Assembly: GCF_004135935.1 (NCBI RefSeq)
Contig: NZ_CP025086.1
Span: 2,418,001 to 2,482,000 of the forward strand
DNA length: 64,000 nt
Direction of reading: 5' to 3'
DNA from: Methylovirgula ligni
GTDB taxonomy: Bacteria; Pseudomonadota; Alphaproteobacteria; Rhizobiales; Beijerinckiaceae
Part shown: piece by piece, positions 6,374-50,594 of the stretch
How positions within the stretch are numbered: the stretch's first letter is position 1
Layout: the number at the start of each line of letters is the position of its first letter
Position numbers and translations under genes: made by a program
The notes under the pieces: generated by a model
What the model was told of the DNA's origin: nothing
The model's input: the letters and a program-made list of their open reading frames with translations, nothing else
Database searches by the model: none

Positions 6374-7354
6374 ATGAAGGAAAATTGGCCCCGGCAAGTG
6401 CCGGCCGTCGAACTCGACGCCGCGGGCGTCGCGCGTTTGGTGCTCCCGCTTTTCCCCGGCGATCGTCTGCGCAGCTTCGCCCCGGTCAGCGGCGGCCTCA
6501 CCAATACCAATTACAAAGTTCAGCTCGTGGAGCATAGGGCGCCGCTGCTGCTGCGGCTCTACCAGCGCGGCATCGCGCCGGCCCGCAAGGAAAGGGCGAT
6601 CGACACTCTGATCGCGCGCCGCGTGCCGGTGCTGCATTTCTTCCATCTTGGCGAGGCCAATCCGGTCACCGGCCATCCCTATGCGGTGCTCGACTGGATC
6701 GAGGCCCCCGATCTCCAGCAGAGTCTCGCCTATATGACGCAGGAGCGGCGGCTCGCTTTGGCGCCGAAAATCGGCAGAACGCTTGCCGCGATCCACGGTT
6801 TTCGCTTCGAGGTGTTCGGCTTCTTCGAGGATGACCTCAAGATCAAGGGGCCGATCGATTTCGACCGCGCCGGCCTCCTCGCCTATCTCGACCAGAGCCT
6901 GATCCAGGGCCGGGGCGGTGAACGGCTCGGACCGGAGCTGACCCAGCGGCTTCTTGCCTATGCCGCCGAGCATGGCAACATTCTCAGCGACTGGCTGCAA
7001 CAACCGAGTCTCGTGCATGGCGATTTCAACGCCGCGAACATTCTCATTCGTCCCGAGGCCGGCGACGAAATCGCGGCGATCATCGATTGGGAATATGCGC
7101 TCTCCGCCTCGCCGGCGATCGATTTCGGCAATCTGCTGCGGCCGCCCTTTGACGCCGATACCACCTTCGCGGAGGCGCTCGCGCGTGCCTATGTCGAGGC
7201 GGGTGGTTTTCTGCCGCGCGACTGGCGCCGCATTGCGCGGCTTGCCGATATCTTTTCGTTTGCGGACATTTTGAACCGCCCGCAGGCCGCCGGCGTGGTC
7301 GTCGCCGATGCGCGCCGTATCGTTGCCGGGCTTCTCGAAGCTCCCACTTCCTAG
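6374..7354 (+). CDS. Aminoglycoside phosphotransferase-fold kinase family protein
   Basis: A 326-residue protein of the APH/choline kinase/homoserine kinase type II fold. It shows a nucleotide-binding N-lobe (SGGLTNTNYKV), the catalytic Brenner motif HGDFNAANIL with the catalytic Asp and Asn, and the metal-binding IIDWEYA segment. The ATG at 6374 lies 23 bases after the RND stop and is preferred to an upstream in-frame ATG that overlaps the RND gene. The substrate is unknown; small alcohols, amino alcohols and sugars are usual for the fold. The end overlaps the convergent cyclase gene by four bases. Confidence 0.8.
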   Translation: MKENWPRQVPAVELDAAGVARLVLPLFPGDRLRSFAPVSGGLTNTNYKVQLVEHRAPLLLRLYQRGIAPARKERAIDTLIARRVPVLHFFHLGEANPVTGHPYAVLDWIEAPDLQQSLAYMTQERRLALAPKIGRTLAAIHGFRFEVFGFFEDDLKIKGPIDFDRAGLLAYLDQSLIQGRGGERLGPELTQRLLAYAAEHGNILSDWLQQPSLVHGDFNAANILIRPEAGDEIAAIIDWEYALSASPAIDFGNLLRPPFDADTTFAEALARAYVEAGGFLPRDWRRIARLADIFSFADILNRPQAAGVVVADARRIVAGLLEAPTS

Positions 7355-8499
7355 GCCGAATCGGGCTGCGGTCCGATAATCGCAAAGGCTTCAATCGGGC
7401 GGTTGAAGCCCTTCAACGTGAGCGGCGGCAAGCGCTCGGCTTTGAAAAACCGCTCGGCGATGAGGAAGGCGTTGCGGTCGATGAGGATTTGGCCGGATTT
7501 CGCTTCGTCGCACAAACGCGACGCGAGATTGGTGACGCTGCCGATGGCGGCATAATCGAAACGGCGGTCGAAGCCGATTTTGCCCAATGTCGCTGTGCCG
7601 CGCGCGATGCCGATGCCGAAGCCGAGATCGTGGCCTCGCTCGCGCCAGGCTTGCGACAGGGTCTCGAGCCCCGTGCGCATATCGATCGCGAGCCTAACCG
7701 CGCGCTCGGTATGGTCGGCACAGGGGATGGGGTCGTTAAACAGCGTCAACAGGCCGTCGCCCGCGAAACGCTCCAGCGTCCCCTCGTAGCGATGGATGAG
7801 ATCGCCGAGCGCGGCGTGGAATTCGCTCAGCACTTTCATCACCTGTACGGGCTCGGCCGCCTCGGTGAAGGCGGTGAACCCGCGCAGGTCGCAGAAAAGC
7901 ACCGTGACTTCCGCGCTATGGCTTGCAAGCATCGCATCCGTATCGCCGGAGAGCGCGATCACATCCACGACCTGTGGCGCCAGAAAGCGCTTGAGCCGGC
8001 TGATGCGTTCGATCTGCGTGACCTGCTCGGCGACACGCGCTTCGAGCACGCGATTCCATTCGGCGAGCTGCTCGGCCTGCGTCGCGAGCTGCCTTGCCTG
8101 GTCCTGCACCTTGTCGTGCAGCGCCTTGATCCGCAGCATGGAGCGCACCCGCGCGACGAGCGCCGATTGGTCGAGCGGTTTCGTCAGATAATCGTCGGCG
8201 CCCGCTTCGAGCCCGGCGACAACATCGCTGCGGTCGGCCTTGGCGGTGAGAAGCAGGATCGGAATGAAACCGAGGCTCGGGTCGGCCTTCAACTCTTTCA
8301 GCACGGAGATGCCGTCGAGTTTCGGCATCATAATGTCGAGAAGGATGAGATCGGGCTTGTGGGTGCGGGCCTGTTCGAGCGCCTCGATGCCGTCGGTCGC
8401 GGTGATGACGTTGTAGCCGCTGGCTTCAAGCCGCAGGCAGACGATTTCGAGATTCTCGAACACATCGTCGACGGCGAGGATTGAGGGGCGTTCGCGCAA
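7351..8499 (-). CDS. Response regulator with class III adenylate/guanylate cyclase domain
   Basis: A 382-residue protein. An N-terminal receiver domain (residues ~5-120) carries the phospho-acceptor in LILLDIMMPKLDG. A linker with coiled-coil character (~125-170) follows, then a class III nucleotide cyclase catalytic domain (~185-370) with VTVLFCDLRGFTAFTE and FAGDGLLTLFND, the latter holding metal-binding aspartates. The product is expected to be cAMP (or cGMP) made in response to phosphorylation. The gene is last in a minus-strand set behind a sensor kinase and a receiver protein, 102 bases downstream of the latter, which suggests one phosphorelay. Confidence 0.88.
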   Translation of the reverse strand: MRERPSILAVDDVFENLEIVCLRLEASGYNVITATDGIEALEQARTHKPDLILLDIMMPKLDGISVLKELKADPSLGFIPILLLTAKADRSDVVAGLEAGADDYLTKPLDQSALVARVRSMLRIKALHDKVQDQARQLATQAEQLAEWNRVLEARVAEQVTQIERISRLKRFLAPQVVDVIALSGDTDAMLASHSAEVTVLFCDLRGFTAFTEAAEPVQVMKVLSEFHAALGDLIHRYEGTLERFAGDGLLTLFNDPIPCADHTERAVRLAIDMRTGLETLSQAWRERGHDLGFGIGIARGTATLGKIGFDRRFDYAAIGSVTNLASRLCDEAKSGQILIDRNAFLIAERFFKAERLPPLTLKGFNRPIEAFAIIGPQPDSA

Positions 8500-33790: not shown

Positions 33791-34984
33791 TCAAGATTGC
33801 GACGCGAGCTTTGCCGGCGGCACCACATTGGCGATGATTTCGCCAAACGGCCCCGCGTTGCGGACGGCCGCGCGTTCGGTGCCGGTCGTCCCGCGCAGGG
33901 GCAGCAAGGGAAACACCTGCTCGGCGAAACGATAACATTCCTCAAGGTGCGGATAGCCTGAGAGAATGAAGCGATCGACACCAACCGCCATATATTCCTT
34001 GAGCCGCTCCGCGACCGTCCGGGGATCGCCGACGAGCGCCGTGCCGGCACCGCCGCGTACCAGGCCGACACCGGCCCAGAGATTGGGGCTGATCTCGAGA
34101 TTGTCGCGCTTGCCGCCATGCAGTTGCGCCATGCGCTGCTGCCCGACCGAGTCGAAGCGCGCGAAGATTTTTTGCGCCGAGGCGATGGTGTCGTCGTCGA
34201 CCTTCTCGATCAATTTGTCCGCCGCCGCCCAGGCCTCGGATTCGGTGTCACGGACGATGACGTGGAGGCGCACGCCGTAAGAAAATACACGCCCTCTGGT
34301 TGCCGCTATGGCACGCACCTCGGCCAGCTTCTTGGCAACCTCGGCGGGCGGCTCGCCCCAGGTCAGATAGGTATCCACATGCTCGGCGGCGATGCGATGC
34401 CCGGCGTCCGACGAACCGCCGAAATAGAGCGGCGGATAGGGGTGCTGCACCGGCGGGTAGAGGAGCTTGCCCCCTTCGATCGTGAGATATTTACCCGTGA
34501 AATCGACGGTCTCGCCGGCCATCAGCCGCCGCCAGATATGCAGGAATTCGTCGGTCAATTCGTAGCGCTCGTCATGACCGAGAAAGAGACCATCGCCATG
34601 CAGTTCCACCGGGTCGCCGCCAGAAACGACATTGACCAGCAGACGGCCGTTGGAAATCCGGTCGAGCGTCGCGGCCATGCGTGCGGCCGCGGCCGGCGCG
34701 ATCAGTCCCGGCCGGACGGCAACGAGGAAGCGGAGCCGTTGAGTTTGCGGCACCAGCGCGGACGCAGCAATCCACGAATCTTCGCAGGACCGGCCGGTCG
34801 GCAGCAGGACGCCAAAATAACCATTGTCGTCCGCGGCCTGTGCGATTTGCCTCATGTAGGAAAGAGAGACCCCACGTGCGCCTTCCTGCGTGCCGAGATA
34901 GCGTCCGTCGCCGTGCGTTGGGACAAACCAAAGGATATCGGCAGCTTCTGCGGGGGGAGGCGGTTGCAGCGTGGTCTCGGTCAT
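33791..34984 (-). CDS. ssuD: FMNH2-dependent alkanesulfonate monooxygenase SsuD
   Basis: A 397-residue flavin-dependent monooxygenase of the bacterial luciferase-like family. It has long near-identical blocks to E. coli SsuD, including [56 protein letters not shown] and [20 protein letters not shown]. The enzyme cleaves the C-S bond of alkanesulfonates to give sulfite and an aldehyde, using FMNH2 and O2. No SsuE-type flavin reductase lies nearby. The start at 34984 is chosen because AGGA lies eight bases before it. It diverges from the FAD/NAD(P)-binding protein and shares an AT-rich promoter region with it. Confidence 0.95.
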
Positions 34985-35051
34985 TCGTATCATCCTGCTG
35001 AGTGACTGGAGCGGAACTCATCATGGCCCCGGCTTGTCAGTCAATATAAAT

Positions 35052-38550: not shown

Positions 38551-39510
38551 ATGGGTCTGTTCGAGGATCGGATCGGCGATCTTGATGATGTGCTGGATCG
38601 GCTTAGCGCGGGCGATGCCGAAAGCCGCCGCATCGCCCTCGCGGACCTCGCCGACCTCGGCGATGTGACGGCCGTGCCCGCTGTCATCGCGGCGCTGACG
38701 GACCCCGACGCGGGCGTGCGCGCGGCGGCGGTGCGGGCGCTCGATGCCTTCGAGGGCGACGCGGTGGCGCAGGCCCTCGCGGATGCGCTGTCCGATCCGG
38801 ACGAGCCGGTGCGCCATGCTGCTGCGGAAGTGCTGGCCGACAAGAACGATCCGGCGTCCGCGCCTGTGCTGGTCACGCTCATCGTGCATCCGGATGCGAG
38901 CGTCCGCGCGGCGGCGCTGAGGGGCCTGGTTGGACTGCGCGAACCCGCCGCGCTTGCACCGACGCTGGCGGCGCTTGCCGATCCTGCCGCCGAGGTGCGC
39001 AAGAACGCGGCGAGCGTGCTCGGCTGGCTGCGTGCGCAAGAGGCGACGCGCGGCCTCGTGGTTGCTGTACGTGATCCCGATCCCGATGTGCGCCGCGTCG
39101 CGGTCGCGGCGCTCGGTTACGACAATGCCGACGCTGACGCTCACGCCGCTTTGGTCAGCGCACTGGGCGATGCGGATTGGCAGGTGCGTGAGAGCGCCGC
39201 CAACGTGCTTGGCAAATTCGGCGGCGGCCAAGGCGTTGCCGCTTTGATCGATGCGATGGCGGACGAGATCTGGCAGATACGTGTGAAGGCGGCGGCGAGC
39301 CTTGGAAAATTGCGCGATCCGGCGGCGATCCCCGCGCTCGGCGCGGCGCTCGATCATCCGATCAGCAATCTGCGCAAGGAGGCGACAGCGGCGCTGGGCG
39401 AAATCGGCCATGCAGACGCGCTGCCCTATCTTACCGCCCACGCGGACGATCCCGACCCCGACGTGCGCAAACTCAATCGCTGGGCGACGGCGAAGGCAAG
39501 CGGCGCTTAG
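38551..39510 (+). CDS. HEAT-repeat protein
   Basis: A 319-residue all-helical solenoid. About ten HEAT/PBS-lyase-type repeats of ~31 residues are easy to see, with the recurring pattern A-V-x-A-L-x-D-P-D-x-x-V-R-x-A-A-x-x-A-L. There is no catalytic domain, signal peptide or membrane helix. Such proteins serve as scaffolds, and some act on cofactor attachment. The gene follows the ferredoxin by five bases, so a chaperone or scaffold role for the flavoprotein/ferredoxin pair is a fair inference. Its stop overlaps the convergent ABC ATPase stop. ATG 38551 is preferred to the long upstream extension. Confidence 0.85.
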   Translation: MGLFEDRIGDLDDVLDRLSAGDAESRRIALADLADLGDVTAVPAVIAALTDPDAGVRAAAVRALDAFEGDAVAQALADALSDPDEPVRHAAAEVLADKNDPASAPVLVTLIVHPDASVRAAALRGLVGLREPAALAPTLAALADPAAEVRKNAASVLGWLRAQEATRGLVVAVRDPDPDVRRVAVAALGYDNADADAHAALVSALGDADWQVRESAANVLGKFGGGQGVAALIDAMADEIWQIRVKAAASLGKLRDPAAIPALGAALDHPISNLRKEATAALGEIGHADALPYLTAHADDPDPDVRKLNRWATAKASGA

Positions 39511-40364
39511 CTCACGCCCGCGCTTCTGCGCCGATAAGCCTCGATGAAATCGGCTGCCGCCTTGCTGCCGCCGGCAAAAGCCTTCATCGCTTCTTCGTGC
39601 AGCAGCGACAAAGCTTCGAGCTTGATGGCGTTGGCGCGATCGTCGCGGAAAATGCTCGCGTAATCACGCGGACGCGGCAGATCGACCTCGATCACCGTGC
39701 GCACCTTGGTCGGGCGAGCGCTCATGACGATGAGCCGGTCGGCGAGGAAGATCGCCTCGTCGATATCGGTCGTCACAAAGAAATTGGTGCGCTTTTCATC
39801 CTCGCAGAGCTTGGCGAAATATTCGAGCATCAGCTTCTTGGTCATCGCGTCGAGGCCGCGGAACGGCTCGTCGAGGATCATCACGTCCGGATTGTTTATG
39901 AGCGCGCGGGCAAGTTCGGCGCGGCGCTGCATGCCGCCCGACAATTGCGCCGGATAACGATCGCGAAAGGGCCGCAGGCCGACCTTGTCGAGCAGGAAAT
40001 CGGCAAGGATTTTCGTCGCCGCATTGGCCTCGCCGCGCGCCTGCGGCCCGTAGAGCACGTTCTTTGCCGTCGTCATCCAGGGAAAGAGAGCCGTCTCCTG
40101 AAACACCACAAGCCGGTTCTTGTCCGGCCCGGTGACAGGCTTGCCCGAGGCGATGATCTCGCCCCGCGTCGGTTTTTCGAACCCGGCGATGAGGCGGATC
40201 AGCGTGCTCTTGCCGACGCCCGACGGGCCGATCATCACCGTGAACTTGTTCGGCTCGACCGTGAAGGAGCAATCTTCCACGACCGGCGTCGCGAACGGGC
40301 CGTAGCCATAGGCCTTGCTCACATTGCGGACGATGATCTCGCCCCTCGGTTTGGCCTCCGTCAT
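39507..40364 (-). CDS. ABC transporter ATPase, nitrate/sulfonate/taurine type (second)
   Basis: A 285-residue ATPase with Walker A GPSGVGKSTL, signature LSGGMQRR, Walker B VMILDEPF and a switch His replaced by the segment FFVTTDIDEAIFLADR, where Thr-Asp stands in place of the usual Thr-His-Asp. It belongs to the SsuB/TauB/NrtD group. It starts one base after the stop of the permease at 40366-41250, so it pairs with that permease. It is the last gene of the minus-strand operon. The missing switch histidine is odd and may lower ATPase activity. Start ATG 40364 is chosen over an upstream extension. Confidence 0.92.
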   Translation of the reverse strand: MTEAKPRGEIIVRNVSKAYGYGPFATPVVEDCSFTVEPNKFTVMIGPSGVGKSTLIRLIAGFEKPTRGEIIASGKPVTGPDKNRLVVFQETALFPWMTTAKNVLYGPQARGEANAATKILADFLLDKVGLRPFRDRYPAQLSGGMQRRAELARALINNPDVMILDEPFRGLDAMTKKLMLEYFAKLCEDEKRTNFFVTTDIDEAIFLADRLIVMSARPTKVRTVIEVDLPRPRDYASIFRDDRANAIKLEALSLLHEEAMKAFAGGSKAAADFIEAYRRRSAGVS

Positions 40365-40365
40365 T

Positions 40366-41250
40366 CTAGCGCAGCCTCCGCCACGGCGTGATCCGGTCCT
40401 CGATGAGACGCACGGCGGCGCTCGACAGATAGCCGGCAATGCCGATCGAGAACATGCCGACGATAATATCGGGGTAGGAGCCGCCGATATAGGAATTCCA
40501 GATGAAGAAGCCGAGGCCGCCGCCAGCGGAGGAATCTCCGCCGGACGCGCCGCCGCCGCCGGAGATCATCTCGGCCGCGATAACGACTTCCCAGGTGATG
40601 CCGATGCCGACTTCCATGCCCGTGCAGATCGAGGGCAGCACGGCGGGCAGGATGATCCTGCGGAAGATGTTCCCGCGCGACGCGCCCATCGAACGCGCCA
40701 CCTGGATGAGGCGGATGTCGATCGCGCGCGCGCCGCCGACGACATTGAGCACAATCGTGTAAAAGGCGCCGAGGAAAATGACGAAATCGATCGAAAGCTC
40801 TTGTGTCGGCCAGAAGATGACCGAGGCCGGCACCCAGGCGAGCGGCGGGATCGGCCGCAGAAGCTCGAAAACCGGGAAGGCGATGCCGCGAAACGTTTTG
40901 TTGATCGCGAGCAAAAGCCCGAACGGGATGCCGACGACGACCGCGGCGGAGAAGCCGAGCAGCACACGCAGGAAGCTGAGATACCAGCTCTGCCAATAAC
41001 CGGGGTCGCCGATCAGATGCGACCAGGCGACCGCCACGGAGACCGGCGAGGGAACGACGCCGAGGATCGGCAATGGATGGCCGAGCCAGGTGCCACTTGT
41101 GGAACCGATCTCCCAAATGAGGAGCGCGATCGCGATGGAAGTGAGCGCGCGCCGCGTGCCAAGCGCGAGGAAGGGATTGCGCCAGCCGAGCGCCTTCCGG
41201 CCGCGCGTGCGGTCCTTGGGCGGCGCGGTGCTGGCGACATCGGCGCCCAT
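40366..41250 (-). CDS. ABC transporter permease, nitrate/sulfonate/taurine type (second)
   Basis: A 294-residue permease with about six helices of the BPD_transp_1 fold. The coupling EAA-type loop reads QVARSMGASRGNIFRRIILP. A Gly/Ser-rich stretch near residue 240 (SGGGGASGGDSSAGGG) lengthens a loop that is only a few residues in most SsuC/TauC relatives. The ATG overlaps the stop of the upstream ATPase (ATGA), so it is translationally coupled. It forms the second channel component of this operon, together with the ATPase at 39507-40364. Confidence 0.93.
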   Translation of the reverse strand: MGADVASTAPPKDRTRGRKALGWRNPFLALGTRRALTSIAIALLIWEIGSTSGTWLGHPLPILGVVPSPVSVAVAWSHLIGDPGYWQSWYLSFLRVLLGFSAAVVVGIPFGLLLAINKTFRGIAFPVFELLRPIPPLAWVPASVIFWPTQELSIDFVIFLGAFYTIVLNVVGGARAIDIRLIQVARSMGASRGNIFRRIILPAVLPSICTGMEVGIGITWEVVIAAEMISGGGGASGGDSSAGGGLGFFIWNSYIGGSYPDIIVGMFSIGIAGYLSSAAVRLIEDRITPWRRLR

Positions 41251-42095
41251 CAGCCCTCCTTCTCGCCGCGCTCGAAGGACTTCGCTGCTTCCTCGTCGAC
41301 GGCCGCCGAAATGTCGGCGGCAAGCTCGCGGAAGCGGGGGCTGGTTAGGACGGTATAATCGCGCGGGTAGGGGATATCGATCTCGACGATCCGCTTCGGC
41401 CGGCAGGGCCGCGCCGTCATGACGATCACGCGATGGCCGAGGAAGATCGCCTCCTCAAGATCGTGGGTGATGAAGAAGATGGTGATGCCGGTGCGCCGGT
41501 GCGTCTCCAGCAAAGCTTCGTGCATCACCGATTTGGTGAGTGCATCGAGCGCACGGTAGGGTTCGTCGAGCAGCAGCACGGTCGGATCGTTGATGAGCGC
41601 GCGGACGATCTCGACACGGCGGCGCAGGCCGGAGGAAATCTCGCCCGGATATTCATTTTCCACGCCCTCAAGCCCGGCTTCCGCCATCAGATGACGCGCC
41701 TTCTCGAAAGCCTCGGAGCGGCTGAGCTTTTTTTGCACCAGCGGGCCAAAGGCGATGTTTTCGAGATTGGTCTTCCAAGGAAACAAAGCGCCGTTCTGGA
41801 ACACGACGATGCGGTCGGAGCCCACCTCCGCTTTCGGCCGGCCGGGGCCGCAGAGCAATTGGCCGTCGAGATAGATGGCGCCCCCGTCGAGGCCGTGAAA
41901 GCCAGCGATGGCATTGAGCAAGGTGGTCTTGCCGCAGCCGGACGGCCCGACGATCATGCAAATCTCGCCGGGCGCGACATCGAAGCTGCAATGATCGACG
42001 GCGAGCACGCGCGCGCCATCGGGATCGTAGAGCTTGACCGCATTGTCGATCGTGAGCGCGCCACGCGTCGCGACGCTTTCGGCCGCGAGGCTCAT
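41250..42095 (-). CDS. ABC transporter ATPase, nitrate/sulfonate/taurine type (first)
   Basis: A 281-residue ATPase with Walker A GPSGCGKTTL, a Q-loop in VVFQNGALFPWKTN, a signature written ISSGLRRRVEI (degenerate from LSGGQ), Walker B TVLLLDEPY and the switch histidine in FFITHDLEEAIFLGHR. It belongs to the SsuB/TauB/NrtD group. The open frame continues further upstream, but the ATG at 42095 overlaps the stop of the permease gene (ATGA), which decides the start. It energises the cNMP-domain permease. The degenerate signature here and the missing switch His in the other ATPase suggest the two may complement each other as a heterodimer. Confidence 0.92.
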   Translation of the reverse strand: MSLAAESVATRGALTIDNAVKLYDPDGARVLAVDHCSFDVAPGEICMIVGPSGCGKTTLLNAIAGFHGLDGGAIYLDGQLLCGPGRPKAEVGSDRIVVFQNGALFPWKTNLENIAFGPLVQKKLSRSEAFEKARHLMAEAGLEGVENEYPGEISSGLRRRVEIVRALINDPTVLLLDEPYRALDALTKSVMHEALLETHRRTGITIFFITHDLEEAIFLGHRVIVMTARPCRPKRIVEIDIPYPRDYTVLTSPRFRELAADISAAVDEEAAKSFERGEKEG

Positions 42096-43363
42096 GCCTG
42101 GCCCTCCATCGCGAACTGGCGCGCGCGCCATTGCATCGCCCAATCGCCGGCGGCGCGCACCAGCGCGCTCGTCGCGTAGCCGAGGATGCCGAGGGTCAGC
42201 ATGGCGATGACGATCGTCGGATATTGGACGGTCGTGTAGGACGTATTGATGAGGTAGCCGAGTCCGAACTGGCCGGAGACCATCTCCGCCGCGACGAGCG
42301 AGAACCAGGCGACGCCGACCGATATCTGCAAGCCGGTGAAAATATAGGGCAGGGCGCCGGGCACGATCACATGCCGGAAGATCTGCAATTGCGAGGCGCC
42401 GAGGCAACTCGCAGCGAGCACGTAGGTTTTGTCGATCGATTTGACGCCGAGCATCGTGTTGAGCGCCGTGGCGTAAAACGAGGCCAGAAACGTCAGAAAG
42501 ATCACCGGCAGTTCCGAGCCGGGCAGCATGATGATTGCGAGCGGCACCCAGGCGAGGATCGGGATCGGCCGGATGATTTCGAACAGTGGAAAGAGATAAT
42601 CCTTGAAACTGCGCGACCAGCCGAGCAGCAGGCCGAAGGGGACGCCGAGCGTCGTCGCCAGCGCGAAAGCGATGGCAATGCGCTGCAAGCTGACGAAAAT
42701 GTGCTGGTAGTAGACCGGCGTATAGATCGAGACGCCATAGGTCGGATTGCGGCTCAGCCATTCATGCAGAACCTGCGTGAGGCCCGGCATTTCGGCGAAG
42801 CGCGGCAGTTTCAGCACCTCGACCGACAGATACCAGAAGCCGAGCAGCAAAGCGTAGCCGATCAGGCCGAGGTAGGGCGTCGGCGAGCGCAGCCAATAGG
42901 CAAAGCGATAAAACGAAAGTTCGAGCGTCCGCGAGACCGCGCTGTGCCCGGCCGGGGCATGGATGTCCTCAAGTGCGTCTTCGACATGTTGGCGCAGTTC
43001 CGTGCCATCGCTCGAACTGCTTGCGACAAGATCGAGAACGCGGTCGCCGGGAATCCGCAGAAGGCTCACGGGGCTGGCGGCAACAGCGCGATAGCGCCGC
43101 CCGGCTTTGCCGCCGAGCGCCGTCCAGCCGAAGGCCTCGCCCGCCTGGACCGACTGCGGCGGCAGACCGCCGCTTGTCGGTTCGAGCAGAACGGTGCCCT
43201 CGCGGACGATGTAAAGCGCATTTGCCGGCGCGCCCGAGGCGTAGATGAGATCGCCTTGCAGCGCTTCAACGGTCTGAGCCGCGGCCGCGATCTCTTGGAG
43301 CGCGGCCGGAGACAGAGCTTCGAAGGGCAGGGCTTTGGCGATCAGCGCTTCTACGTCGCTCAT
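42092..43363 (-). CDS. ABC permease with N-terminal cyclic-nucleotide-binding-like domain
   Basis: A 423-residue fusion. Residues ~1-120 are a Crp-type cNMP-binding-like beta-roll (LQGDLIYASGAPANALYIVREGTVLLEP, GEAFGWTALGG, YRAVAASPVSLLRIP), followed by a linker with Ser/Glu residues. A first membrane helix (~160) and a BPD_transp_1 permease (~215-410) with coupling loop AASCLGASQLQIFRHVIVP follow. Family permeases of the SsuC/TauC type normally lack this domain. The phosphate-binding cassette is not canonical, so ligand binding is unproven. It starts 10 bases after the binding-protein stop. A cytoplasmic domain like this could gate transport. ATG 43363 is chosen. Confidence 0.87.
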   Translation of the reverse strand: MSDVEALIAKALPFEALSPAALQEIAAAAQTVEALQGDLIYASGAPANALYIVREGTVLLEPTSGGLPPQSVQAGEAFGWTALGGKAGRRYRAVAASPVSLLRIPGDRVLDLVASSSSDGTELRQHVEDALEDIHAPAGHSAVSRTLELSFYRFAYWLRSPTPYLGLIGYALLLGFWYLSVEVLKLPRFAEMPGLTQVLHEWLSRNPTYGVSIYTPVYYQHIFVSLQRIAIAFALATTLGVPFGLLLGWSRSFKDYLFPLFEIIRPIPILAWVPLAIIMLPGSELPVIFLTFLASFYATALNTMLGVKSIDKTYVLAASCLGASQLQIFRHVIVPGALPYIFTGLQISVGVAWFSLVAAEMVSGQFGLGYLINTSYTTVQYPTIVIAMLTLGILGYATSALVRAAGDWAMQWRARQFAMEGQA

Positions 43364-43373
43364 GCCGCGCTCT

Positions 43374-44495
43374 CTATCGGAAGGCGGTTTCGGGCGCGGC
43401 CTTGATCTCGCCAACCGGAATCGCGAGCCCGCGCGTCTTCAAGATTTCAGTCGTATAGCCGGGAAGCACCGCGTCGTCCGCCAGCTTCTCGGCATCGATG
43501 CTTTTGATCGAGTGGAGGAAGGCGGTATCCTTGGCGATGAGCGCCAGTGCATTCTGCGAAAACCCGAAGGGCACCGTCAGCCGGACTGGGCCGCCGCCGC
43601 TCGACGCCGGATAAGCGCCGAATTCAGCCTGCCACAATTCCTTCTGGGTGAAGCCGGTGGTCTGCGCCTTCAGCAGTTCGGCGACTTTGACGGCATTGGC
43701 CGGATTGGCGAGGAAGAGCTCTGCATCAAGCTCGGTTTCGAGCCACGCCTTGATGATGTCGGGCCGCTGTTTGATCAGATCGGCGCGCGCGTCGAGGAAG
43801 GCCCCATCCGGTTCGTCGAAATTATAGCCGCTGGCGACCCGCCGGGCGAGGCCCTCCGCGACAAGCCGTGAGGCTGTCGGCTCCCACAGTACGGCGCCGT
43901 CGATCTTGCCGACGCGGAAGCCGCTGGTGATGACCTCGATGCTCTGGTTGAGATAGGCGCTGGGCGCCGTTTTGGTCTTCTGGAAGACGGCTTGCGCGAA
44001 ACGATCGGCGCAGCTCCCCTTCGGACTCGCGACGGTCTTGCCGTTGAGCCATGTCACGGCCGCCTTCGCATCGGTGAACTGCGGCGCGTCCTTACGGACG
44101 AAGAAGACGTTGCACTGGTCATGGCCAAGGCCGATGTTCGCGATGATGCGCAGGTCGGCGACGCTCCGCTTCGTCGTCGCGACGATCGCCGGCATGTCGC
44201 CGAGATAGCCGAGGCTTGCTTTGCCGGCGAGCATGGAATTGACGACGATCGAGCCTTGCAAGCCGACGTGGAATTCGACGGTCGAGCCGGCGGGCAGATA
44301 TTTCTTCCACAATTGCAGGCCGTTGATGACGGCGCCCGACCAGGCTTCGCTGTAGTAGGGCTGATAGCCCACGACGAGATGGATCGGATCGCCCGGCTTG
44401 CCATAGTCGAGGTCTGCCGCCTGCACATTATTGGCGCTCGCCAGGCCAAGACCGGCAAGAGCCCAAATAGCTACGCGCTTTACGAGGTGACGCAC
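43374..44495 (-). CDS. Sulfonate-type ABC transporter substrate-binding protein
   Basis: A 373-residue binding protein of the SsuA/TauA/NrtA type. A signal peptide occupies ~1-26 (LVKRVAIWALAGLGLASANN) with cleavage near VQA/AD. The mature part has PIHLVVGYQPYYSEAW, VNSMLAGKASLGYLGDMPAIV and GSCADRFAQAVFQ. The GTG at 44495 is chosen because AGGAGAT lies six bases before it. It is the only binding protein in the operon, though two permease/ATPase pairs follow. Substrate is probably an organosulfonate given SsuD nearby. Confidence 0.9.
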   Translation of the reverse strand: MRHLVKRVAIWALAGLGLASANNVQAADLDYGKPGDPIHLVVGYQPYYSEAWSGAVINGLQLWKKYLPAGSTVEFHVGLQGSIVVNSMLAGKASLGYLGDMPAIVATTKRSVADLRIIANIGLGHDQCNVFFVRKDAPQFTDAKAAVTWLNGKTVASPKGSCADRFAQAVFQKTKTAPSAYLNQSIEVITSGFRVGKIDGAVLWEPTASRLVAEGLARRVASGYNFDEPDGAFLDARADLIKQRPDIIKAWLETELDAELFLANPANAVKVAELLKAQTTGFTQKELWQAEFGAYPASSGGGPVRLTVPFGFSQNALALIAKDTAFLHSIKSIDAEKLADDAVLPGYTTEILKTRGLAIPVGEIKAAPETAFR

Positions 44496-44517: not shown

Positions 44518-45297
44518 TCAGCAGCCATCGGCGATGGCGCGCAGCGCCTCGCGACGGAGAACGACGAGGCGCCGGCCATTGATGTCGACGAGGCCGCGCT
44601 TGCGAAATTTTTCGATGGTCATCGAAATCCATTGCCGCGTCGCGCCGACCATCGCGGCAAGCTCTTCATGCGAGGGCATTTCGGCGATGACGATCGTGCC
44701 TTCGGACTCGACGCCCTTGAGGTCGATGAGATTGAGCAGAAGGTGCGCCAGCCGCTCGACGACCGAACGGGTGCCGAGCATCTGCAGCAGCGAGGAATAG
44801 CATTTGCCTTTGTAGGCAAGACCCTGCACGAGGCCGAGTGCGAAGTTGGGAATATCCGACATCAGCCGGCGCACGGCCGGGCCGGGCAGGCGGATCGCAT
44901 GGCCCGCCTTTATGCCGATGCCTGACCAGACATGCGGCGCTTCGCTGAAAATATCCGGGCCGCCGACGAAATTGCCGGGCGTCCAATTCGCGAGCGTGAT
45001 CTCGCGCCCGTTCGGCGCGACATAGAAGCTGCGGACGATGCCTTCGCGCAGGATAAAGATGCCGCTGTGCGCGTCACCTTGGCGGAAGAGGTGATCGCCC
45101 GCGTCGAAGTCGATGCGCTCGCCAGCGGCGGCGACCCGCGCAGATTCGCGCGCCGTCAATGTCGCGAAGACATCCGGGACGCCCGCCAGATTTGGCAGGG
45201 TCTCAAACAGCAGCAACGAGCCGTCCTGTTGCGGCCGGGCATCCCGGCCCGCGACGGGGTCGCTGGAAATTTCTCTTGAAATTGAATGCAATAGCAT
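44518..45297 (-). CDS. Crp/Fnr family regulator at the head of the sulfonate transport operon
   Basis: A 259-residue regulator with a cNMP-like beta-roll (~45-150, GDHLFRQGDAHSGIFILREG, GNFVGGPDIFSEA) and a winged helix (~180-250, PSHEELAAMVGATRQWISMT and IEKFRKRGLVDINGRRLVVL). The GELA of cAMP-binding proteins is replaced by GGPDIF, so the ligand is probably not cAMP. It is the first gene of the minus operon; the binding-protein gene starts 22 bases downstream. It is likely to control the transport genes and perhaps the divergent ssuD/AprA-like genes, in place of the CysB/Cbl pair of enterobacteria. Confidence 0.9.
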   Translation of the reverse strand: MLLHSISREISSDPVAGRDARPQQDGSLLLFETLPNLAGVPDVFATLTARESARVAAAGERIDFDAGDHLFRQGDAHSGIFILREGIVRSFYVAPNGREITLANWTPGNFVGGPDIFSEAPHVWSGIGIKAGHAIRLPGPAVRRLMSDIPNFALGLVQGLAYKGKCYSSLLQMLGTRSVVERLAHLLLNLIDLKGVESEGTIVIAEMPSHEELAAMVGATRQWISMTIEKFRKRGLVDINGRRLVVLRREALRAIADGC

Positions 45298-45340
45298 TCT
45301 GTGCCTTGGCGCCACTCAAGTCGCTTTGGGCGAAAAAAAC

Positions 45341-47682: not shown

Positions 47683-49380
47683 TCATCTCCTGACGATGCT
47701 CAGAACGAGAAGAATAATCAAAACGGCGCAAAGGACTTGCCAGAAGAGCAGGGGATTTCGTTCGATGAGTGGCCCACGATGAAGCGGCGCCGGGCGAAGA
47801 TTTCCGTGTTCCAGCGCGAAGATAAATTCATCGAGATCGCCAAAACGATCGTCCCGGCGCAGCGAGATGGTGCGCAGGATCACGGCGTTGAGCCAGGCTG
47901 GTATGTCGTCGCGATAGGCTGATAGCGGCGGCACCGGGCCGAACAGCGGACGCTCGCCGGGAGGAGTCTCGCCGAAGGGATATTTGCCCGAGAGCATGCG
48001 ATAGAGCGTGACGCCCAACGCATATTGGTCCGACAAGGCATCGCCTCTGTTCTCGCGAAACAGCTCCGGCGCCATATAGTCGAGCGTGCCGGGTGTCTCG
48101 ACTTCATCGACATCCTCCAGCCGGGGGAGGTGCGCGACGCCAAGATCGATGAGCTTCACGTCGCCGTTTTCCAGCAGCATGATATTTCCGGGCTTGATGT
48201 CGCGATGCGTCACGCTGGCCTTGTGGAGCGCGGCAAGGCCGCGCGCCGCCTTAATGGCAATCGCGACGGCCTCATCGACCTTCATCGGGCCGTCGCGTCG
48301 CAGCCGGTCTTCCAAAGTCTCGCCCTTGTAATAGGGCATGGCGACATAAAGCCGGCTCTGGCGGCCTTCGGGCAACAAGAGCGAGGCGCCGACGTTTGGA
48401 TGCGCGATCCGTTGGCCAAGAAAAACTTCACGCATGAATCGCGTGCGCTCGATTGGAGTCGTCGTCGCGGGATCGGGGAGTTTCAGCACCGCCCATTCGT
48501 CATCCCTCTTTGCCAGAAAGAGGCGCCCAGTCTTGCTCTCGGCGAGGATGCGGACGAGCTTGAAGCCATCGATCGTCTCGCCGAGGGCCGGGATTGGCCG
48601 GATCGGCAGGGCCTCCATGCCCGCGACGACTGAACTGTAGGCGGGCGATGGCACGGTGATGATGTCGATCACGAGCGCCGTTGTGTCGTCATCGCTGCCA
48701 GCCGCGATTGCGGCGTCGACAATCGCATCGGCATCGGTCTGCGCGACTTCTTCGCGCCGGGCGAGGAGTTGCAGAAGATTATTCGCGGAAAGAAACTCGT
48801 GAACGCCGCGCGTCGTCAGTAAAAGGCGGTCCTGCGCTTCGAGGCTTTGCGTCTTGATGTCCAGCCGAAGCGCGGGTTCAAGCCCGGCGGCGCGCAGGAG
48901 CGCCCGCCCGCCATGCGCCTGCGGCGCGGAATGATCGTCGGTCAGCAGGGTGAGATTGCCGGCGCGCAGATGCCACGCACGGCTGTCGCCGACGTGGAGG
49001 ATGGTGGCGATCCGGCCGAGAAGCACCGCCGCGGTGAACGTCGTCGAGGCGCCGCGCAGCACCGGGTCGGATCGCGACTGGCCATGAAGCCAAAGATTAT
49101 AGGCATCGAGCGATTTCATCGCGGCGGCGCCGACGCCGACGGGCTCTCTTTGCGAGCGATAGCCGTCTATGAAGGCCCTGACGGCAAGTTCGGATGCGAC
49201 GCGGCCGCCCTGGGCATTGCCGAACCCATCAGCGACGGCGGCGACAATGCCTTGCACGGCCCGCTGAGACGCCGTGCCGATATCGACAGTGCCAAAGTCC
49301 TGATTGTTCGTGCGCTTGCCGGCGCGGGTGGCAAATCCCGCTGCGATCTCAAGCTGGCCCCGCGCGCTCACGCCGCACAT
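47683..49380 (-). CDS. Fused PP2C protein phosphatase and Ser/Thr protein kinase
   Basis: A 565-residue two-enzyme fusion. Residues ~8-240 form a PP2C-type phosphatase (GKRTNNQDFGTV, VAAVADGFGNAQGG, HVGDSRAWHL, AGSDDDTTALVI). Residues ~265-530 form a eukaryotic-type kinase with VLKLPD (ATP-binding Lys), THRDIKPGNIMLL (catalytic loop) and IDLGVAHL in place of DFG. A C-terminal membrane helix (~545-562, FWQVLCAVLIILLVLSIV) anchors it. Such fusions occur next to nitrate-assimilation genes in some proteobacteria, but none lie here. One protein that both adds and removes phosphate suggests a bidirectional switch; its target is unknown. Confidence 0.92.
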   Translation of the reverse strand: MCGVSARGQLEIAAGFATRAGKRTNNQDFGTVDIGTASQRAVQGIVAAVADGFGNAQGGRVASELAVRAFIDGYRSQREPVGVGAAAMKSLDAYNLWLHGQSRSDPVLRGASTTFTAAVLLGRIATILHVGDSRAWHLRAGNLTLLTDDHSAPQAHGGRALLRAAGLEPALRLDIKTQSLEAQDRLLLTTRGVHEFLSANNLLQLLARREEVAQTDADAIVDAAIAAGSDDDTTALVIDIITVPSPAYSSVVAGMEALPIRPIPALGETIDGFKLVRILAESKTGRLFLAKRDDEWAVLKLPDPATTTPIERTRFMREVFLGQRIAHPNVGASLLLPEGRQSRLYVAMPYYKGETLEDRLRRDGPMKVDEAVAIAIKAARGLAALHKASVTHRDIKPGNIMLLENGDVKLIDLGVAHLPRLEDVDEVETPGTLDYMAPELFRENRGDALSDQYALGVTLYRMLSGKYPFGETPPGERPLFGPVPPLSAYRDDIPAWLNAVILRTISLRRDDRFGDLDEFIFALEHGNLRPAPLHRGPLIERNPLLFWQVLCAVLIILLVLSIVRR

Positions 49381-49538: not shown

Positions 49539-50594
49539 ATGAGTCTGGATTCTTCGATTCCGAGCCATCTTAGATGCCCACGCACGCGCACCCGCCGGGT
49601 GAGCGACACATGGAAACCGGCCGTCCCGGCCTATTCCGCGCTGGGTCCGCAGTCGATCAAGCAGTTGGTGATGGCTTACTTCGGCGTGCAGATAAAGAGC
49701 GATGAAACGAAAGGGCAGGCTTGCGCCGCCTTCCGCACTATCTTGCAGAGCTTCAACGTGGACGATGGCCCGGCGCGGCACGATCTGGTGCAATTCGTCG
49801 ATGGCCAGGGTCATCTCAACTTGATCGCCGTCGCCTATTGGGAAGAGCCCGAGAAATATCACAAGTGGAACGATAAACCGGCGGTCAAGAGCTGGTGGTC
49901 TTCCGATGACCGGCTCAACGACGGTGTCGGCTATTTCCGCGAGATTTTCTCGCCACGCATGGAACAGTTCGAGACGATCTTCACGGCGCCGGGGCCGCTC
50001 GAAGGCGTCAGCATCCTGCTCGGGGGCCTGACTGAACCGATTATCGAGCACGGCTACTGGGGATCGATGCGGGACCGCCTTCCGCTCTCGCAAACCGACA
50101 CGATGGATCCATCGGGTGAACTGGCGCTGAAGCAGGGAACACCGGCCAAGGGCGGCCGCGTGATCGTGGCCGGCCATCAGAATCTGACGCTCATCCGCTC
50201 CGGCGAGGATTGGAGCCGGACGGACGGCGAAGAGCGCCGCACCTGGTTCGAGGACATTCAACCCGTGCTTCTGGATGGAATGAACTATTTGCGCGACGAC
50301 GGCCTTGAGGTCGGCTGCTATTGCAACCGCTATTGCTACCACATGGACAAAGACGGCAAGGTTGAGGAAAAGGGATTTGGCGTCAGCCTGTGGCGGTCGT
50401 TGTCCAATCTCGAATCCTGGGCGGAATCGCACCCCACGCATCTGCAGATTTTCGTGACGTTCAACCGACTTGCCAAGAAGTTCAAGGAACTCGTGCTCTA
50501 TCACGAGGTGTCGGTGTTCGATGCGTCGGCGCAATATTTCGAATACATCAACTGTCATCCGAAGACCGGGGTGATGCGCGCCTTTGCTGCGTAG
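49539..50594 (+). CDS. Aldoxime dehydratase (heme enzyme)
   Basis: A 351-residue protein of the phenylacetaldoxime dehydratase/OxdA family. Conserved parts include FTAPGPLEGVSILLGGL, GHQNLTLIRSGEDWS, GCYCNRYCYHMD and the C-terminal LYHEVSVFDASAQYFEYINC. His301 and His322 have the 21-residue spacing of the proximal heme ligand and catalytic His (299 and 320) of OxdA, so the enzyme is probably active. It removes water from R-CH=N-OH to give a nitrile. No nitrilase or nitrile hydratase gene is seen nearby, unlike classic aldoxime pathways. Confidence 0.9.
   Translation: MSLDSSIPSHLRCPRTRTRRVSDTWKPAVPAYSALGPQSIKQLVMAYFGVQIKSDETKGQACAAFRTILQSFNVDDGPARHDLVQFVDGQGHLNLIAVAYWEEPEKYHKWNDKPAVKSWWSSDDRLNDGVGYFREIFSPRMEQFETIFTAPGPLEGVSILLGGLTEPIIEHGYWGSMRDRLPLSQTDTMDPSGELALKQGTPAKGGRVIVAGHQNLTLIRSGEDWSRTDGEERRTWFEDIQPVLLDGMNYLRDDGLEVGCYCNRYCYHMDKDGKVEEKGFGVSLWRSLSNLESWAESHPTHLQIFVTFNRLAKKFKELVLYHEVSVFDASAQYFEYINCHPKTGVMRAFAA

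Follow-up and report, generated by a model that had tools for sequence, protein, structure and literature searches.

The first permease of a methanesulfonate-type ABC importer, as judged by phylogeny and gene order, carries a Crp-type, cyclic-nucleotide-binding-like (cNMP-like) domain at its N-terminus in the stretch of 64,000 nucleotides of Methylovirgula ligni analysed here (the window). The best explanation, although one that could still go either way, is that this domain would be a cytosolic switch adjusting sulfonate uptake to a ligand other than cAMP or cGMP.

The fused permease gene

The gene, which we call permF, and its N-terminal domain are located as follows.

42092..43363, minus strand: permF (423 aa), a cNMP-like domain (residues ~7-135) followed by an MsmF-type ABC permease (residues ~150-423)
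42959..43345, minus strand: N-terminal cNMP-like domain of permF (about residues 7-135), whose phosphate-binding cassette, GEAFGWTAL..RRYRA, has Trp in place of Glu

The first-pass annotation had already described a fusion at 42092-43363. The fused open reading frame stands, and its strand is the minus one (43363-42092): the ATG is at 43363, 10 bases past the stop of the upstream gene, the stop codon is at 42094-42092, and the plus-strand frame there is anticoding. Pfam profiles match both parts in the same frame, cNMP_binding (PF00027) at residues 35-115 (43.6 bits, E 3e-11; cut-off 27.5 bits) and BPD_transp_1 at residues 240-404 (87.3 bits, E 1.4e-24; cut-off 26.4 bits), which confirms the claim of a Crp-type domain ahead of the permease. 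When the sequence was searched against the PDB, the C-terminal part matched NrtB/CmpB-type permeases (E 1e-35) and the N-terminal part gave a weak match to the cyclic-nucleotide domain of MloK1 (E 4e-4). A profile of the group of domains that share the tryptophan cassette (see below) matched PDB proteins with CNB domains at 1e-15 or better. From residue 101 to residue 171 there is no in-frame ATG, GTG or TTG. A permease translated by itself would have to start inside the first transmembrane helix, which leaves the fusion as the only plausible product.

The EAA-type loop of permF (ASCLGASQLQIFRHVIVPGALP, at about residues 318-339) is at the place expected for an importer permease, and this loop is cytosolic in type I importer permeases of this class. 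The modelled helices and the hydropathy predict four transmembrane helices ahead of it, so the N-terminal domain should be cytosolic, and the predicted topology thus bears out the location initially proposed. The order of helices and strands in the domain is compatible with a beta-roll, but the AlphaFold models, built on few sequences (five and two rows), had a mean pLDDT of only 49 for the domain and 59 for the whole protein. Foldseek gave no significant match with the low-confidence model (best E 0.017), and we do not use these results as evidence.

The importer operon and its neighbours

The genes around permF are listed below.

44518..45315, minus strand: Crp/Fnr-family regulator (cNMP_binding and HTH_Crp_2), first gene of the operon, its own cassette lacking the canonical Glu
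43374..44486, minus strand: MsmE-type substrate-binding protein (NMT1_2; SsuA/TauA-like)
41250..42095, minus strand: MsmG-type ABC ATPase, whose start overlaps the stop of permF
40366..41250, minus strand: MsmH-type second ABC permease, lacking the extra domain
39507..40364, minus strand: second ABC ATPase, corresponding to the additional ATPase beside MsmH in Filomicrobium
38551..39510, plus strand: HEAT-repeat protein, also found beside the orthologous importer in L039
38312..38545, plus strand: small ferredoxin, two cysteine motifs of 4Fe-4S type (read from sequence), also beside the importer in L039
36539..38302, plus strand: AprA/FrdA-like flavoprotein (NF006131), its gene convergent with the operon
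33791..34993, minus strand: FMNH2-dependent alkanesulfonate monooxygenase, MsuD-type

The operon is transcribed in the order Crp-type regulator, substrate-binding protein, permF, ATPase, second permease and second ATPase, with genes whose ends overlap or nearly touch. It was thus rightly described as headed by a Crp-type regulator. This regulator was considered as the source of the permF domain through recent copying, which was ruled out because the two domains are barely alike (about 11 bits). On the plus strand, an FAD oxidoreductase, the flavoprotein, the ferredoxin and the HEAT-repeat protein face the operon, and the monooxygenase lies beyond them on the minus strand. The best solved relative of the monooxygenase is MsuD (7jv3), which scores 604 bits against 539 for the SsuD entries. 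Methanesulfonate is a substrate of MsuD, whereas SsuD is barely active on C1 substrates (PMC8234197). The msmABCD genes are absent from the window, and we found no MsmA orthologue in the window genome, where the best match has only 31% identity and lies well away from the window. From orthology and these neighbours, the importer probably takes up small sulfonates such as methanesulfonate.

Elsewhere in the window, positions 47686-49380 encode, as read from the sequence, a PP2C-like phosphatase joined to a protein kinase domain, with a membrane helix at the C-terminus. The product of positions 49539-50591 presumably resembles haem-containing aldoxime dehydratases.

Recurrence of the fusion in other genomes

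The first-pass annotation proposed a search for the same fusion elsewhere, and this search was positive in five betaproteobacterial genomes (G650, G835, G849, G955 and G1032; the class is taken from the family of one of them, Methylibium petroleiphilum PM1, and from the centre of the search). A phylum-wide sample gave one such genome, G650, in which the fusion is complete (56% identity across residues 2-422), and the other four were added by searching the sampled genomes of its family and class. The fused homologues are 54-58% identical to permF from residue 2 or 3 on, where the alignment spans both domains. We identified G849 as PM1 because 6 kb of its second contig match plasmid NC_008826 at 100%.

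Such permeases usually lack this domain, as had been supposed: in a search of 149 genomes from the family of the window, permF is the only fused protein among the listed matches. In the window's order, six orthologues (53-61% identical) all lack the cNMP-like domain. A scan of genome contigs with the whole protein retrieved only distant pieces and an unfused gammaproteobacterial orthologue, L039, which is 67% identical to permF in the multiple alignment and is encoded with a ferredoxin, a HEAT protein and a sulfonate monooxygenase. The best plasmid match by coverage (86%), in Paraburkholderia, was rejected as a fusion since it spans a substrate-binding protein and separate hypothetical proteins. 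This stretch of the Paraburkholderia largidicola plasmid (L163) encodes the substrate-binding protein, two hypothetical proteins, an ABC ATPase, an LLM flavin oxidoreductase and soxC/cytochrome c, and looks like another sulfonate-use cluster.

The fused betaproteobacterial loci encode the alpha and beta subunits of a Rieske oxygenase, a reductase, a ferredoxin that itself bears a cNMP-like domain, a substrate-binding protein, the fused permease, an ATPase, a second permease and a second ATPase. Four of the five also encode a stand-alone cNMP-like protein upstream. The additional domain-bearing proteins are the following.

L117:12188-12913 (PM1), L111:11737-12462, L116:10520-11245, L118:10994-11719 and L129:13888-14628: Rieske ferredoxin with a C-terminal cNMP-like domain, Trp cassette, in the role of MsmC
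L117:6025-6480, L111:983-1438 and L118:4831-5286: stand-alone cNMP-like protein of 152 aa, Trp cassette, encoded immediately behind an NtrC-type response regulator

The MsmA-like subunits of all five loci have a Rieske spacer of 17 residues (X17). A short MsmA spacer has been noted for M. petroleiphilum and Methyloversatilis (PMC4433239), in a text from which the word "cyclic" is absent. The unfused alphaproteobacterial loci L078-L082 are canonical msm loci, with an MsmA spacer of 26 residues (X26), a plain Rieske ferredoxin and a plain permease. In these genomes the extra domain is therefore found on permease and ferredoxin together or on neither, and tracks the split between X17 and X26 (five loci of each kind). 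A third case is the window, in which the importer bears the domain and an MsuD-type enzyme stands in place of MsmA. We found no description of a permease or ferredoxin fused to a cNMP-like domain in the open-access literature.

Phylogeny, origin of the domain and selection

When the permease parts were placed in a tree, one clade (support 100/100) took in every msm-type permease, that of the window and those beside MsmA X26 among them. Within the tree permF pairs with the unfused L039 (97/97), beside four of the fused betaproteobacterial permeases, while G1032 groups with the canonical clade with weak support (81/78). As the nearest orthologue by phylogeny lacks the domain, the importer can dispense with it. 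These relationships fit one old fusion followed by losses in L039 and in the canonical msm loci, or several fusions or transfers.

The origin of the domain was assessed with a profile HMM of the betaproteobacterial permease domains, built without the window and run on the open reading frames of ten cNMP loci of the window genome. It ranked the fused domain first (60.7 bits, the next scoring 38.3), and the HMMs of the ferredoxin domains and of the stand-alone proteins gave this domain lower scores (31.2 and 39.8 bits, respectively). This favours an origin shared with the betaproteobacterial permease domains. The window domain is divergent and gets no resolved place in the domain tree, where a clade of the six permease domains was neither rejected nor demonstrated (p-AU 0.46). 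In the closest pair, PM1 and G955, dN/dS is 0.13 for the N-terminal domain, 0.32 for the linker and 0.04 for the permease, which argues that the domain is constrained by purifying selection; the values calculated for more distant pairs were left aside.

The binding pocket

In domains that bind cAMP or cGMP, a glutamate of the phosphate-binding cassette contacts the 2'-OH of ribose and an arginine contacts the cyclic phosphate. We compared 71 distinct cNMP domains, among which this position is Glu in 47 and Trp in 16. All 15 cNMP-like domains of sulfonate loci have the tryptophan (in G-W-[AT]-A), and only one of the 56 others does. This exception is a fragment of a cNMP-like protein on a Desulfobacterales contig (L041:3-359, with GWSSL), the only Trp cassette found outside sulfonate loci. 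Among the compared domains of the window genome, permF alone has it. The cassette had been called non-canonical, and the replacement of Glu by Trp in the window domain agrees with this; it also makes the suspected difference in ligand probable, i.e., a ligand other than cAMP or cGMP. An arginine lies near the usual place of the cassette (the R90/R91 region in the window) and is aligned in the betaproteobacterial domains, with a gap of one residue there in the window. The residues F, Y, G, V, GW, A, R, G and G are shared by all domains in an alignment of nine.

Alternative explanations

The main rival to a ligand-driven switch is a module for docking or assembly: the permease domain would bind the Rieske-cNMP ferredoxin or the stand-alone cNMP-like protein and so bring the oxygenase to the importer. 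Crp-like domains pair, three proteins of one locus bear a domain of this kind, and the lost ribose contact fits a loss of ligand binding. Yet the domain has been kept in the window genome, which has no MsmA orthologue and no second Trp cassette among its compared cNMP domains, and the C-terminal (pairing) helices are no better conserved between groups than the beta-roll. We consider docking rather unlikely.

In an ordinary cyclic-nucleotide switch, cAMP or cGMP made by class III cyclases would gate transport; the first-pass annotation had suggested gating by a nucleotide or another effector. The match to PF00027 and the possibly retained cassette arginine speak for it, as does the presence of two class III cyclases in the genome, one outside the window and one inside. 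The latter is the receiver-cyclase that had been reported in the window, and it was indeed found at 7354-8499, with a receiver and a class III cyclase domain (PF00211 at genome positions 2425378-2425920). It lies about 34 kb from permF, and the proposed link had no basis other than their sharing the window. Against such gating, the residue that should contact ribose is tryptophan throughout the group, which from the sequences makes this explanation improbable.

The domain could also be a non-functional left-over of gene fusion. This would agree with its absence from the nearest orthologue and with its evolving faster than the permease. However, it is kept in six genomes of two classes, with a dN/dS below that of the linker in the closest pair, and it retains the invariant residues listed above; a left-over is therefore quite improbable. 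Finally, an error of sequencing or assembly joining two genes, which would have undone the initial claim and for which we found no supporting point, can be dismissed because five other assemblies have the same fusion and the junction has neither a stop nor a usable start.

Comparison with known systems

The window resembles the MsmEFGH importer of Methylosulfonomonas and Filomicrobium in the order substrate-binding protein, permease, ATPase and permease, which is followed by a further ATPase. It differs in that canonical MsmF has about 295-300 aa and no N-terminal domain (Filomicrobium MsmF, 14372-13485, has 888 nt; PMC4433239), and in that the window has no msmABCD. The X17 MsmA loci, such as that of PM1, share with the window both the fusion and the importer order, but add MsmA, MsmB, MsmD and the Rieske-cNMP ferredoxin where the window has its monooxygenase. 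The closest solved permeases by sequence, NrtB and CmpB (8w9m, 9u9z), have chains of about 280 aa, which leaves no room for a cNMP-like domain at the N-terminus. MloK1 and similar proteins, like permF, join PF00027 to a membrane protein. In MloK1 the domain is C-terminal, in a channel, and its Glu/Arg cassette, canonical in our comparison, binds cAMP.

Among ABC importers, MetNI and ModBC are trans-inhibited by their substrates and OpuA is acted on by cyclic di-AMP, in all cases through cytosolic ligand-binding domains on the ATPase (C2, C-terminal domain and CBS; PMC10710835). That review mentions cyclic-nucleotide domains on MFS transporters, and we found none described there on the permease of an ABC importer. 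The regulatory domains of well-studied ABC importers are on ATPases, whereas in the window the domain is of Crp type and at the N-terminus of the permease.

Proposed function and implications

If the domain of permF is a switch with a ligand other than cAMP or cGMP, its place would be on the cytosolic side, close to the ATPases and the coupling helices, from where it would act allosterically on sulfonate uptake. Our preferred guess for the ligand is a small anion from this pathway, such as sulfite, the sulfonate or a metabolite related to them, since an arginine is retained in the cassette and the ribose contact is lost. Import might then stop whenever the cell is unable to oxidise the sulfonate or dispose of sulfite, a trans-inhibition as in MetNI and ModBC. 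In the betaproteobacterial loci, the like domain on the Rieske ferredoxin could place uptake and oxidation under one signal. More generally, we tentatively suggest that a single non-nucleotide ligand, or a contact between domains, may act through the Trp-type module on permease and Rieske ferredoxin and switch uptake and oxidation of C1 sulfonates together, post-translationally.

Were this so, Crp-type domains would gain a new class of ligand, and none of them has, as far as we found, been described before on an ABC importer permease. The one change of the pocket common to the domains of permease and ferredoxin provides a testable case of a single signal for import and oxidation, and the system could help to show which ligands Crp-type domains with the Trp cassette bind. 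Methanesulfonate-like compounds, the probable substrates of these importers, are important in the global sulfur cycle.
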